Source: Burkholderia pyrrocinia (GTDB lineage Bacteria; Pseudomonadota; Gammaproteobacteria; Burkholderiales; Burkholderiaceae). From it: a DNA stretch of 64,000 nt. Positions 25,827-53,264 of this stretch are shown here, one piece after another (within the stretch, counting starts at the first letter, position 1; the number at the start of each line of letters is the position of its first letter). The notes under the pieces are model-generated. The model saw only the letters and a program-made list of their open reading frames with translations, did not search any database and had not been told where the DNA came from. The stretch lies in the NCBI RefSeq assembly GCF_018417535.1, contig NZ_CP070977.1, forward strand, positions 3,596,001 to 3,660,000. Reading direction: 5' to 3'. The position numbers and the translations under genes were made by a program.

Positions 25827-27308
25827 ATGCATTCGCATCCCGAAGCCGCCGATACGCTGATCGTCGGCGCGCAGCTTTACGACGGCACTGGCACACCGCC
25901 CGTCACGCGCGACGTCGCGATCCGTAACGGCGTGATCGCGGCGATCGGCAACCTGTCGAACTGGCTCGCCGAGACCGTCGTCGATGCGAACGGCCGCGCG
26001 CTCGCGCCGGGTTTCGTCGACGTGCATACGCACGACGACACGCACGTGATCCGCGCGCCGCAGATGCTGCCGAAGATCTCGCAGGGCGTGACGACCGTGA
26101 TCGTCGGCAACTGCGGGATCAGCGCGTCGCCGGTGACGCTCGCTGGCGATCCGCCCGACCCGATGAACCTGCTCGGCGAGCGCGGCGCATTCCAGTACCC
26201 GACCTTCGCCGACTACGTCGCAGCCGTGAACGATGCGCGTCCGGCCGTGAACGTCGCGGCGCTCGTCGGCCACACGGCGCTGCGCAACAACCAGATGGAC
26301 CGCCTCGACCGCGCGGCGACCGACGGCGAGATCGCGGGGATGCGCGCGCAGCTCGAGGAGGCGCTCGCGAACGGCGCACTCGGATTGTCGTCGGGCCTTG
26401 CGTACGGTTCCGCGTTCGCGGCGCCGACCGAGGAAGTGATGGCGCTCGCCGAGCCGCTCGCAAACGCGGGCGCGCTGTATACGACGCACATGCGCACCGA
26501 GTTCGACGCGATCCTCGATGCGATGGACGAGGCGTATCGCGTCGGCCGCCATGCGCAGGTGCCGGTCGTGATCTCGCACCTGAAGTGCGCGGGCCCGTCG
26601 AACTGGGGGCGCAGCACCGAGGTGCTCGCGTCGCTCGAAGGTGCGCGCCGCTACCAGCCGGTCGGCTGCGACTGCTATCCGTACAGCCGCAGCTCGTCGA
26701 CGCTCGACCTGAAGCAGGTGACGGGCGACATCGACATCACGATCACGTGGTCCGAGCCGCACCCGGAAGTCGCGGGCAAGCTGCTGAAGGCGATCGCGGC
26801 CGACTGGGGCGTGACCGAGCAGGAAGCCGCGCAGCGCATCCGCCCGGCCGGCGCCGTGTACCACAACATGTCAGAGGACGACGTGCGCCGGATCCTGTCG
26901 CACCCCGCGACGATGGTCGGCTCGGACGGGCTGCCGAACGATCCGCTGCCGCACCCGCGGCTGTGGGGTGCATTTCCGCGCGTGCTCGGCCATTACGTGC
27001 GCGACACGAACCTGCTGCCGCTCGAGGAGGCGATCCGCAAGATGACATCGCTGTCCGCGCGCCGCTACGGGATTGCGCGGCGCGGCGAGGTGCATGTCGG
27101 CTACCACGCGGATCTCGTGCTGTTCGATCCGGCGCGCGTGATCGACGCCGCGACGTTCGAGAAGCCGCAGCAGCCCGCGCACGGGATCGATGCCGTGTGG
27201 GTGAACGGCGTGCTGACCTACGAGAACGGCCAGCCGACCGGCGAGCGCGCCGGCGGCTTCGTCGCACGCGGCGAACGCGTGCCGGCGGGCGCCGACGCCG
27301 CGTTCTGA
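25827..27308 (+). CDS. N-acyl-D-amino-acid deacylase (D-aminoacylase)
   Basis: The product is 493 residues of the amidohydrolase superfamily. The metal-binding HxH is in 'VDVHTHDDTHVIR' (about residue 67), with later ligand motifs 'TTHMRTE', 'VISHLKCAG' and the C-terminal 'VGSDGLPND'. It hydrolyses N-acyl-D-amino acids to free D-amino acids, which the divergent DSD1-like enzyme can deaminate. AGGAGA immediately precedes the start, which lies two bases after the rpiR stop. The C-terminal region carries the usual small beta-sandwich of the family. Confidence 0.92.
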   Translation: MHSHPEAADTLIVGAQLYDGTGTPPVTRDVAIRNGVIAAIGNLSNWLAETVVDANGRALAPGFVDVHTHDDTHVIRAPQMLPKISQGVTTVIVGNCGISASPVTLAGDPPDPMNLLGERGAFQYPTFADYVAAVNDARPAVNVAALVGHTALRNNQMDRLDRAATDGEIAGMRAQLEEALANGALGLSSGLAYGSAFAAPTEEVMALAEPLANAGALYTTHMRTEFDAILDAMDEAYRVGRHAQVPVVISHLKCAGPSNWGRSTEVLASLEGARRYQPVGCDCYPYSRSSSTLDLKQVTGDIDITITWSEPHPEVAGKLLKAIAADWGVTEQEAAQRIRPAGAVYHNMSEDDVRRILSHPATMVGSDGLPNDPLPHPRLWGAFPRVLGHYVRDTNLLPLEEAIRKMTSLSARRYGIARRGEVHVGYHADLVLFDPARVIDAATFEKPQQPAHGIDAVWVNGVLTYENGQPTGERAGGFVARGERVPAGADAAF

Positions 27309-27371
27309 GCGCGGCGGTTATTCCGGTCTTCCGCGTGTGCCGCTGCAGGCGCGCGCATCCGCAACCGTGCG

Positions 27372-27417
27372 TTGCATGGGATCCGGGTCAGTGCTGAAGC
27401 GCCTGCCCGGGTCGACA
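27372..27417 (+). other. 46-nt conserved hairpin element, copy 1 (ridA leader)
   Basis: Copy 1 of a two-copy element; copy 2 is at 52009-52054. It opens with TTGCATGGGATC and ends TCGACA. Outer stem GATCCGGGT (27380-27388) pairs with GCCCGGGTC (27405-27413) with two G-U pairs; inner stem GTGC/GCGC closes a TGAA loop. The two copies are the same length with 36 of 46 identical bases, and all seven differences in stem positions keep pairing. It lies 17 nt before the ridA start. It could be a structured mRNA leader or a short repeat. Confidence 0.65.
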
Positions 27418-27434
27418 AAACAAGGAGTGAAACG

Positions 27435-27821
27435 ATGAAGCGATATGGCGTAGGCGAAGCGAAGGGTACCGGCGGCCAGGTGATGCCGTTTGCACGCGCG
27501 GTCGAGGCCGACGGCTGGCTGTACGTGTCGGGCCAGACGCCGATGGTCAACGGCGAGGTCGTCGAAGGCGGGATCGTCACGCAGTCGAAGCAGACGATCG
27601 AGAACGTGATCGCGATCCTGAAGGAAGCCGGTTACGGCCTCGAGCACGTCGTGCGCTGCGGCGTGTGGCTCGACGACGCGCGCGATTTCGCGTCGTTCAA
27701 CAAGGTGTTCGTCTCGTACTTCGGCGAGCATCCGCCGGCGCGCGCGTGCGTGCAGTCGAGCATGGTCATCGACTGCAAGGTCGAGGTGGACTGCATCGCG
27801 TACAAGGCGCCGGCGAAGTAA
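27435..27821 (+). CDS. ridA: RidA-family enamine/imine deaminase
   Basis: The product is 128 residues. RidA fold features are present: 'LYVSGQTPM', 'NVIAILKEAGYGLEHVVR', the key arginine in 'PPARACVQ' (about residue 104) and the glutamate in 'KVEVDCIAY'. RidA proteins hydrolyse reactive 2-aminoacrylate and related imines released by PLP dehydratases, matching the D-amino-acid enzymes beside it. AAGGAGTG precedes the ATG. It is 126 nt after the deacylase with the structured element between them, so it may be regulated separately. Confidence 0.92.
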   Translation: MKRYGVGEAKGTGGQVMPFARAVEADGWLYVSGQTPMVNGEVVEGGIVTQSKQTIENVIAILKEAGYGLEHVVRCGVWLDDARDFASFNKVFVSYFGEHPPARACVQSSMVIDCKVEVDCIAYKAPAK

Positions 27822-49558: not shown

Positions 49559-51994
49559 GTGAGCAATTTCCTGATTCGCAAGGTCGCCGTGCTGGGCGCC
49601 GGCGTGATGGGCGCGCAGATCGCCGCGCACCTCATCAACGCGCGCGTGCCGGTGCTGCTGTTCGACCTGCCGGCCAAGGAAGGCCCGAAAAACGCGATCG
49701 CGCTGAAGGCGATCGAGAACCTGAAGAAGCTGTCGCCCGCGCCGTTCGGCGTGAAGGACGACGCGAAGTACCTCGAAGCGGCGAACTACGAAGACGACAT
49801 CGCGAAGCTGGCCGAATGCGACGTCGTGATCGAGGCGATCGCCGAACGGATGGACTGGAAGCACGACCTGTACAAGAAGGTCGCGCCGCACATCGCACCG
49901 AACGCGATCTTCGCGACCAACACGTCGGGCCTGTCGATCACGAAGCTGTCCGAAGGGTTCTCGGACGAGCTGAAGTCGCGCTTCTGCGGCGTGCACTTCT
50001 TCAACCCGCCGCGCTACATGCACCTCGTCGAGCTGATCCCGACCGCGCATACGCGCCCGGAAATCCTCGACCAGCTCGAGACGTTCCTGACGAGCATCGT
50101 CGGCAAGGGCGTCGTGCGCGCGAAGGACACGCCGAACTTTATCGCGAACCGCGTCGGCATCTTCTCGATCCTCGCGGTGATCACCGAGGCCGCGAAGTTC
50201 GGCCTGCGCTTCGACGAAGTCGACGACCTGACGGGCAGCCGTCTCGGCCGCGCGAAGTCGGCGACGTTCCGCACCGCGGACGTGGTCGGCCTCGACACGA
50301 TGGCGCACGTGATCAAGACGATGCAGGACAACCTCGCCGACGATCCGTTCTTCCCGGTCTACCAGACGCCCGCCGTGCTCGCCGAACTGGTGAAGCAGGG
50401 CGCGCTCGGCCAGAAAACGGGCGGCGGTTTCTACAAGAAGGAAGGCAAGGCGATCAAGGTGCTCGACGCGAAGACGGGCACCTATGTCGACTCGGGCGCG
50501 AAGGCTGACGAAACTGTCGGCCGCATCCTGAAGCGTCCGCCGGCCGAGCGCCTGAAGCTGCTGCGCGAGACGGACCATCCGCATGCGCAGTTCCTGTGGT
50601 CGATCTTCCGCGACGTGTTCCACTACATCGGCGTGCATCTCGAGTCGATCGCCGACAACGCGCGCGACGTCGACCTCGCGATCCGCTGGGGCTTCGGCTG
50701 GAACGAAGGCCCGTTCGAGGGCTGGCAGGCCGCCGGCTGGAAGCAGGTCGCCGAGTGGGTGCAGGAAGACATCGCGGCCGGCAAGGCGCTCGCGAACGTG
50801 CCGCTGCCGTCGTGGGTGCTCGAAGGCCCGGTTGCCGAGCAGGGCGGCGTGCACACGGCCGAAGGCTCGTGGGCACCGGCGGCGCAGCGCTTCGTGCCGC
50901 GTTCGGACCTCGCGGTCTACGGCAAGCAGGTCTTCCGTGCGCCGCTGCTCGGCGAAGCGGGTGCCGATCCGAAGTCGTACGGCAAGACGCTGTTCGAGAC
51001 CGACGCGGTGCGCGCCTGGGTCGACGACCGTGCGGGCGAGGACGACGTCGTGATCGTGTCGTTCAAGTCGAAGATGAACACGATCGGACCGAGCGTGATC
51101 GACGGGCTCGTGCAGGCGATCGAACTCGCGGAGAAGGACTACAAGGGCGTGGTGATCTGGCAGCCGACGTCGCTGAAGCTCGGCACGCCGGGCGGCCCGT
51201 TCTCGGCCGGCGCGAACCTCGAAGAGGCGATGCCCGCGTTCATGATGGGCGGCGCGAAGGGCATCGAGCCGTTCGTGAAGAAGTTCCAGGAAGGCATGCT
51301 GCGCGTGAAATACGCGAACGTGCCGGTCGTCGCGGCCGTGTCGGGCATTGCGCTCGGCGGCGGGTGCGAGCTGATGCTGCACAGCGCGAAGCGCGTCGTG
51401 CACGTCGAGAGCTACATCGGTCTCGTCGAAGTGGGCGTCGGCCTGGTGCCGGCGGGCGGCGGTCTGAAGGAAGCGGCACTGCGCGCGGCGGAAGCGGCAA
51501 CGGCCGCGAACGCGACCACCGACATCCTGAAGTTCGTCACGAAGTCGTTCGAGAACGCGGCAATGGCGAAGGTGTCGGCGTCCGCGCACGACGCACGTGC
51601 GATGGGCTACCTGAAGCCGTCCGACACGATCGTCTTCAACGTGTTCGAACTGCTCGACACCGCGAAGAAGGAAGCGCGCGCACTGGCCGCCACCGGCTAT
51701 CGCGCACCGCTTCGGGCGAAGGACGTGCCGGTCGCGGGCCGCTCGGCGATCGCGACGATCAAGGCATCGCTCGTCAACATGCGTGACGGCCGCTTCATCA
51801 GCGACCACGACTACCTGATCGCGAGCCGCATCGCCGAAGCCGTGTGCGGCGGCGACGTCGAAGCCGGCAGCCTCGTCGACGAGCAGTGGCTGCTCGCGCT
51901 CGAGCGCCGCGCGTTCGTCGAGCTGCTCGGCACGCAGAAGACGCAGGAACGGATCATGGGCATGTTGCAGACCGGCAAGCCGGTGCGTAACTGA
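49559..51994 (+). CDS. FadN-type 3-hydroxyacyl-CoA dehydrogenase/enoyl-CoA hydratase
   Basis: The product is 811 residues from GTG 49559 (GGAG at 49548-49551). The NAD-binding dehydrogenase domain comes first ('VAVLGAGVMGAQIAAHLINA', residues about 9-28; 'HFFNPPRYMHLVELIPT' near 149; 'IANRVGIFSI'), and a crotonase domain comes last ('GGPFSAGANLEEAM' and 'GIALGGGCELMLHSAKRVVH', about residue 545-620). This is the reverse of E. coli FadB/FadJ order and matches the Bacillus FadN arrangement. The two crotonase glutamates are both visible. It does steps two and three of beta-oxidation. Downstream thiolase is 70 nt away. Confidence 0.92.
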   Translation: MSNFLIRKVAVLGAGVMGAQIAAHLINARVPVLLFDLPAKEGPKNAIALKAIENLKKLSPAPFGVKDDAKYLEAANYEDDIAKLAECDVVIEAIAERMDWKHDLYKKVAPHIAPNAIFATNTSGLSITKLSEGFSDELKSRFCGVHFFNPPRYMHLVELIPTAHTRPEILDQLETFLTSIVGKGVVRAKDTPNFIANRVGIFSILAVITEAAKFGLRFDEVDDLTGSRLGRAKSATFRTADVVGLDTMAHVIKTMQDNLADDPFFPVYQTPAVLAELVKQGALGQKTGGGFYKKEGKAIKVLDAKTGTYVDSGAKADETVGRILKRPPAERLKLLRETDHPHAQFLWSIFRDVFHYIGVHLESIADNARDVDLAIRWGFGWNEGPFEGWQAAGWKQVAEWVQEDIAAGKALANVPLPSWVLEGPVAEQGGVHTAEGSWAPAAQRFVPRSDLAVYGKQVFRAPLLGEAGADPKSYGKTLFETDAVRAWVDDRAGEDDVVIVSFKSKMNTIGPSVIDGLVQAIELAEKDYKGVVIWQPTSLKLGTPGGPFSAGANLEEAMPAFMMGGAKGIEPFVKKFQEGMLRVKYANVPVVAAVSGIALGGGCELMLHSAKRVVHVESYIGLVEVGVGLVPAGGGLKEAALRAAEAATAANATTDILKFVTKSFENAAMAKVSASAHDARAMGYLKPSDTIVFNVFELLDTAKKEARALAATGYRAPLRAKDVPVAGRSAIATIKASLVNMRDGRFISDHDYLIASRIAEAVCGGDVEAGSLVDEQWLLALERRAFVELLGTQKTQERIMGMLQTGKPVRN

Positions 51995-52008
51995 GCGAGC
52001 GCATAACT

Positions 52009-52054
52009 TTGTATGGGATCGGAGTAAGCGCTGAAGCGCCGACTCCGATCGACA
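52009..52054 (+). other. 46-nt conserved hairpin element, copy 2 (thiolase leader)
   Basis: Copy 2 of the element also found at 27372-27417. Stem GATCGGAGT (52017-52025) pairs perfectly with ACTCCGATC (52042-52050); inner GCGC/GCGC closes the same TGAA loop. GACTCC (52041-52046) can alternatively pair with GGAGTC (52055-52060), which includes the thiolase Shine-Dalgarno. It ends ten nt before the thiolase start. Confidence 0.65.
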
Positions 52055-52064
52055 GGAGTCTCAA

Positions 52065-53264
<1,200 letters not shown>

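Follow-up and report, generated by a model that had tools for sequence, protein, structure and literature searches.

A mobile palindromic repeat of Burkholderiaceae located mainly at ribosome-binding sites

The short hairpin that occurs twice in the window, by which we mean the whole 64,000-nt stretch of Burkholderia pyrrocinia DNA analysed here, is a mobile palindromic repeat located mainly at ribosome-binding sites. The original prediction had offered two readings, a short mobile hairpin repeat and a cis-regulatory RNA family, and the first of these is well supported by dispersed copies, head-to-tail arrays, presence and absence at three orthologous sites and clean insertion ends at two of them. 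We class the element with the small interspersed palindromic repeats, among which its docking place is unusual; in searches of the open-access literature, judged by titles and abstract beginnings, no description of it was found among the matches listed.

Two copies before unrelated genes

Each copy comprises 46 nt on the forward strand, at 27372-27417 before ridA and at 52009-52054 before a thiolase gene (Table 1). The copies align without gaps at 36 of 46 positions, and seven of the ten differences fall in stems with pairing kept in all seven, including two double compensatory changes (C-G to G-C and G-C to A-T), exactly as had been claimed for them. Both forward strands are predicted to fold into a nine-pair outer stem, a 2x2 internal loop, a four-pair inner stem and a UGAA loop, so that the stems and the terminal loop of the original prediction stand, while its internal loop is symmetric rather than asymmetric. 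The fold energy is -22.5 kcal/mol for copy 1 (z -2.65) and -23.5 kcal/mol for copy 2 (z -4.62), and in neither case did any of 200 shuffles fold as well. The reverse strand of copy 1 reaches -18.2 kcal/mol, matched by 10 of 200 shuffles, and that of copy 2 reaches -24.2 kcal/mol (z -6.06; 0/200 shuffles); since both strands fold, the fold by itself does not choose between them. A 27-base degenerate pattern, allowed up to three mismatches, found no site in the window beyond the two copies and none in 100 shuffles. Pattern search, shuffle tests and the genome-wide matches described below lead us to reject a chance resemblance.

The claim that both copies directly precede the Shine-Dalgarno (SD) sequence of unrelated genes was confirmed, with a gap of at most 4 nt at ridA and at the thiolase gene. 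That gap is too short to hold a promoter between the element and the SD, and we reject one accordingly; the one promoter-like match, at 52049-52077, starts within the final bases of the unit and spans the thiolase start codon. A Rho-independent terminator was likewise rejected, as no terminator-like site was present. Within the ridA copy, an ATG opens a frame of 20 codons (27376-27438). Its TGA shares bases with the start codon of ridA (ATGA), so that in this genome the frame might be translationally coupled to ridA. The 3-hydroxyacyl-CoA dehydrogenase / enoyl-CoA hydratase gene ahead of the thiolase gene starts further upstream than 49913.

Table 1. Coordinates of the repeat units and associated features (window positions unless a locus is named)
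Feature	Position	Strand	Evidence
Repeat unit copy 1, model positions 1-47	27371..27417	+	R1 match, 61 bits, at G000:C1:3623371-3623417; fold
Copy 1 outer stem	27380-27388 with 27405-27413	+	Predicted fold
Copy 1 inner stem	27391-27394 with 27399-27402	+	Predicted fold
Segment absent from the orthologous site of element-free relatives	27367..27416	+	Filled versus empty ridA leaders; right end uncertain by a few bases
ridA Shine-Dalgarno, AAGGAG	27422..27427	+	Also in empty leaders L201, L203, L213
ridA (Rid family, Ribonuc_L-PSP)	27435..27821	+	PF01042, 92.8 bits; TIGR00004, 98 bits, under cut-off 106.25
Amidohydrolase gene, upstream of ridA, same strand	25827..27308	+	PF07969; ends 62 nt before unit
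Repeat unit copy 2, model positions 1-47	52008..52054	+	R1 match, 70 bits, at G000:C1:3648008-3648054; fold
Thiolase gene Shine-Dalgarno, AGGAG, abutting unit	52054..52058	+	Sequence
Acetyl-CoA C-acyltransferase (thiolase)	52065..53264	+	NF006553, 773.1 bits (cut-off 567); PF00108, PF02803
3-Hydroxyacyl-CoA dehydrogenase / enoyl-CoA hydratase gene, 3' part, upstream of thiolase	49913..51994	+	PF00725, PF00378, N-terminally cut PF02737
Y1-like protein related to REP-associated tyrosine transposases	L255:1123-1833	-	NF047646, 52.8 bits, under cut-off 80

A dispersed family in Burkholderiaceae

The description of the element as two-copy holds for the window only, as the genome that contains it (8.54 Mb, three contigs) carries a dispersed family. 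The core GCTGAAGCGCC occurs at 44 places in this genome versus 54 for a reversed-pattern control; many of these places are chance matches, and others have common flanks and structure. A covariance model, R1, built from 19 own-genome copies, returned 106 rows in the same genome at E<=0.1, with reverse-strand shadows counted, and these were grouped into 42 clusters. The full unit is about 49 nt long, owing to a conserved GC directly 5' of the 47 model positions, and a profile of 75 clusters shows conserved flanks of GC-TTT-GCATGG (GCATGGG) and CGACA. Units also form head-to-tail arrays with a period of 49 nt and the same linker throughout, the relative G109 carrying an array of about 14 units; this array (L334) precedes a gene that by eye resembles a CoA-transferase.

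Under stricter filters that lose weak matches, R1 matched all 25 same-genus genomes surveyed (our own counted), 85 of 200 genomes in 8 of 25 genera of the family Burkholderiaceae, and 2 of 200 genomes in an order-wide draw, both of them Burkholderiaceae; 16 genomes of the same order but of other families gave no match. Among eight named ridA loci, clear R1 matches were obtained in Burkholderia stagnalis (64.7 bits) and B. cepacia (44.1 bits), and blastn recovered arrays of this kind from 10 replicon records, which belong to Burkholderia, Caballeronia and Paraburkholderia. Phage records contained no match to the element, and the four matching stretches opened in plasmid records held no annotated gene. 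In Rfam, no match reached the gathering score in the window, and searches around each copy at E<=10 gave only matches far under it. A covariance model, a genome search and a comparison with Rfam, as the original prediction had proposed, gave a covarying family lying mostly before SD sequences and no known Rfam family.

Some copies lie in other settings. Three identical 47-nt sequences of our genome (L103, L115 and L140; 36.8 bits) sit antisense between tRNA-Ile(gat) and tRNA-Ala(tgc), at sites that are probably rRNA operon spacers. At loci of G073, G052 and G162 (among L229-L248; L316-L318, L320 and L322) and at L119 (reverse strand) and L120 of our genome, the unit is found inside another GC-rich intercistronic repeat, CCCCCTCGGGGGG ... 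AGCGAACG ... GTGAGCGTGGGGG. In G073 the unit has been amplified together with this enclosing repeat.

Position before the Shine-Dalgarno sequence

Each cluster was scored by the 45 nt that follow its last unit 3' on the same strand, which had to contain an SD-like word and a start codon opening a reading frame of at least 60 codons with a GC3 of at least 0.7. This arrangement was found in 29 of 37 own clusters, versus 2 of 37 in the reverse-strand control, and in 29 of 40 loci from 11 other genomes, versus 1 of 40. Of the intergenic positions of the window, 6.8% show it, and against this baseline 29/37 has a p of about 3e-27. The 3' end of the unit tends to lie directly against the SD: across 75 clusters, GGAGA is favoured at the five positions that follow CGACA (69, 60, 57, 69 and 71%). 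For 24 of 37 own and 30 of 40 other clusters, the 300 nt upstream include the end of a reading frame on the same strand, so that many copies are probably intercistronic.

The arrangement was lacking in 8 of the 37 own and 11 of the 40 other clusters. Seven of these 19 are nested in another repeat, three are the antisense copies between tRNA-Ile and tRNA-Ala genes, and one (L111) lies ahead of a tRNA-Ser gene; at L304, L307 and L321, CGACA-GGAGACA followed by ATG is present and only the reading-frame criterion was missed. The copies are thus not scattered at random through intergenic DNA and, as described below, covariation extends beyond the two in the window, contrary to the outcome that the original prediction had named as telling against it. 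The downstream genes are unrelated: they include ridA, the thiolase gene, atpC and moaE (the last two named by eye) and the tRNA-Ser gene, and many of the encoded proteins look catabolic as judged by eye.

Presence and absence at orthologous sites

At ridA and atpC, comparison of orthologous leaders reveals the element as a discrete insertion. Empty ridA leaders read AACC-GAAACAAGGAG and the filled leader of G237 reads AACC-(unit)-GAAACAAGGAG; at atpC, empty leaders read CTCAACC-AGGAG and our own genome reads CTCAACC-(unit)-AGGAG. The inserted segments, of 50 nt at ridA and 48 nt at atpC, enter cleanly ahead of the gene's own SD with no obvious target duplication. Insertion ends are less clean at the thiolase gene. 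The position of the insert there varies between genomes, which speaks for gain on more than one occasion. On trees built from flanking coding DNA, whose change counts do not separate gain from loss, the 19 filled of 32 ridA leaders imply seven presence changes on the best tree (five forced by well-supported branches), the 9 filled of 30 thiolase leaders imply seven (six forced), and the 14 of 30 atpC leaders with a full unit in strict register imply eight. Some of the other 16 atpC leaders carry remnants or off-register units. Short remnants lie upstream of atpC at L163, L165-L167 and L189; by eye, they resemble products of deletion between two GGAGT motifs, one in the 5' arm and one in the SD.

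Pairing, wobble and the level at which the hairpin may act

Pairing in the stem persists across copies, and double changes are numerous. In 84 distinct copies from other genomes, aligned by fitting to the structure model, 97.3% of cells are paired and 80 double-change cells are found versus 16.5 after shuffling. The 19 own units (alignment A2) are 94.3% paired with 20 double-change cells versus 6.1, and 17 ridA leaders are 93.5% paired with 22 versus 9.4. Other measures give a weak signal: pairs with a double change number 5 versus 3.2 shuffled in A2 (33 of 500 shuffles as high), and pair types number 17 versus 15.1 at ridA (62 of 500). Among the 17 ridA leaders the loop and inner stem vary and the pairing is kept.

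A DNA palindrome under selection would covary as well. Sense-strand RNA helices tolerate G.U and not A.C, whereas change at the DNA level or neutral change is expected to be strand-symmetric. In dispersed copies, G.T to A.C departures number 6:8 (A2), 42:41 (A3, 74 rows) and 20:18 (A5), that is, they are strand-symmetric. At ridA, G.U outnumbers A.C by 25:9 when cells are counted and by 19:5 (p 0.007) when minimal tree events are counted; atpC, with 6:4 events, shows no significant bias. An RNA role of the hairpin is therefore suggested at one locus, ridA, and not generally.

These observations bear directly on a purely selfish or neutral palindrome, in which the hairpin would matter only as DNA (single-stranded or cruciform) for mobilisation, would have no host role, and would be seen before SDs because insertion is tolerated or targeted there. 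The symmetric departures in dispersed copies, the lack of significant bias at atpC, the frequent presence/absence changes at all three loci, the decayed atpC remnants and the copies nested in and amplified with another repeat would all fit this explanation, but the 19:5 excess of G.U events and the covarying stem kept at the orthologous ridA site speak against it, and we regard it as unlikely, though a serious possibility. Were the element instead a palindromic DNA site bound by a transcription factor or nucleoid protein, strand-symmetric departures would be accommodated as well; near-fixed orientation, SD register and clean insertion at two loci are unexpected for a plain DNA site, and we find this explanation highly improbable.

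The cis-regulatory RNA option of the original prediction has mixed support. In a specific form, the hairpin or hairpins would bind a protein, sRNA or metabolite and so control the translation of mainly catabolic genes, and the non-random placement on the coding strand before the SD, the conserved GCATGGG and CGACA flanks, the wobble bias at ridA and the catabolic look of many downstream proteins are in keeping with it. However, the element also precedes genes that by eye are atpC-like and moaE-like, as well as ridA and a tRNA-Ser gene, a set of unrelated genes; many orthologues do without it, its presence changes often, the ridA loop is not conserved, Rfam gave no match, and pairing departures in dispersed copies are strand-symmetric. 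We judge such regulation improbable. A two-copy riboswitch was rejected in view of the dispersed family, the variable ridA loop and the polymorphic presence. An off switch in which the ACTCC of the 3' arm pairs with the GGAG of the SD was unsupported; judged by eye, variation in the arms is independent of the SD. A micro-ORF in the unit (ATG, three codons, stop) occurs in 70 of 83 A5 rows and 38 of 73 A3 rows; as a feature it was unsupported, since it is not kept among ridA leaders and may reflect shared ancestry only. Excerpts from PMC5688073 compare the double-hairpin sRNAs of Burkholderia with sRNAs of Neisseria in which CU-rich stretches are able to base-pair with ribosome-binding sites.

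Candidate mobilisers

At E<=0.1, R1 found no match at 10 Y1_Tnp loci fetched from eight genomes, and no copy lay within about 1.5 kb. A Y1-transposase-like protein common to the eight searched genomes is present in 183 of 200 family genomes, usually once, versus 85 of 200 for the element, and the own-genome protein has QVQ at the position where an HUH motif would be expected. As a mobiliser this single-copy protein is unsupported, given its wider spread, its QVQ motif and the absence of a unit beside it; the protein encoded at L255, with QVQ, is possibly a domesticated, catalytically dead relative. G089 and G162 each have one more Y1_Tnp gene, with strong matches of 153 and 150 bits. Non-autonomous elements of the IS200/IS605 type enter a fixed short target with no target duplication and are moved by an HUH transposase; for the present family, the clean ridA and atpC insertions show no obvious duplication, and no fixed target emerged.

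Discussion

We consider it moderately probable that these elements are mobile palindromic repeats of Burkholderiaceae that insert upstream of the SD on the coding strand and act passively as insulating hairpins. On this reading a copy enters directly 5' of the SD that belongs to a gene, in the sense orientation and often in the gap between two cistrons, and slippage or repeated insertion would presumably generate the head-to-tail arrays. Once transcribed, every copy would form a hairpin with its 3' foot directly against the ribosome-binding site. A retained copy might then act passively: as a self-contained hairpin in a leader or between cistrons, it would insulate the ribosome-binding site from what lies upstream, and it may protect the downstream cistron after cleavage, roles that we infer only tentatively. 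Across 52 leaders, the predicted probability that the SD is unpaired is 0.589 with one unit versus 0.505 with none (p 0.0015) and 0.502 with a shuffled unit (p 0.0005 versus the real unit); a reversed unit gives 0.543, which is not clearly worse (p 0.10). As the gain is small and the reversed unit not clearly worse, SD accessibility does not explain the orientation of the element. A more ambitious version, in which insertion itself, and not just later selection, recognises the ribosome-binding region and the element is a portable 5'-leader module that is repeatedly gained, duplicated and lost at genes throughout a bacterial family and tunes their translation as RNA, seems to us rather unlikely and is put forward with corresponding reserve.

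The family combines a fixed strand and a fixed register to the ribosome-binding site with occurrence in dozens of leaders of one genome, and it suggests how 5' leaders can be quickly remodelled between close species. The natural pairs of filled and empty alleles make the effect of a hairpin at the SD on expression directly testable.

Several known systems share features with the element. Correia elements and the pneumococcal BOX and RUP repeats are small non-autonomous repeats beside genes and are transcribed with them; the present family is likewise a small interspersed repeat next to genes, but it has one 49-nt hairpin per unit and a fixed SD register. Riboswitches and other cis-regulatory RNAs are structured leaders before the SD and sometimes occur in tandem, whereas our element has no Rfam match, a loop unconserved at an orthologous site, unrelated downstream genes and a presence that is not conserved. 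CRISPR arrays also consist of tandem palindromic units, with unique spacers between them; here there are no unique spacers, the 49-nt period and the linker being constant, and the arrays stand before genes.

The closest parallels lie with REP sequences, their BIME composites and RAYT proteins, for which excerpts from two sources describe short palindromes that are scattered through each genome in many copies, mainly between genes, with stems kept by complementary changes, variability between related species and some tandem REPs (PMC2817692, PMC3733652), all of which applies to the present family. According to excerpts from one of these, REPs bear a tag, GTAG or CGTC, that is left unpaired at one of their ends, lie mainly downstream of coding regions and, where close together, are mostly in opposite orientation (PMC3733652). 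As far as these excerpts allow comparison, the present family differs in that neither tag is present, the flanks across 75 clusters being GC-TTT-GCATGG and CGACA; in that no repeat-flanked RAYT gene, as in the GTAG class, was found at 10 Y1_Tnp loci of eight genomes; and in that its units are head-to-tail and stand before the SD (29/37 and 29/40 clusters) rather than downstream or opposed. REPs, as the best known short palindromic repeats, mostly follow genes, whereas the family described here mostly precedes them.
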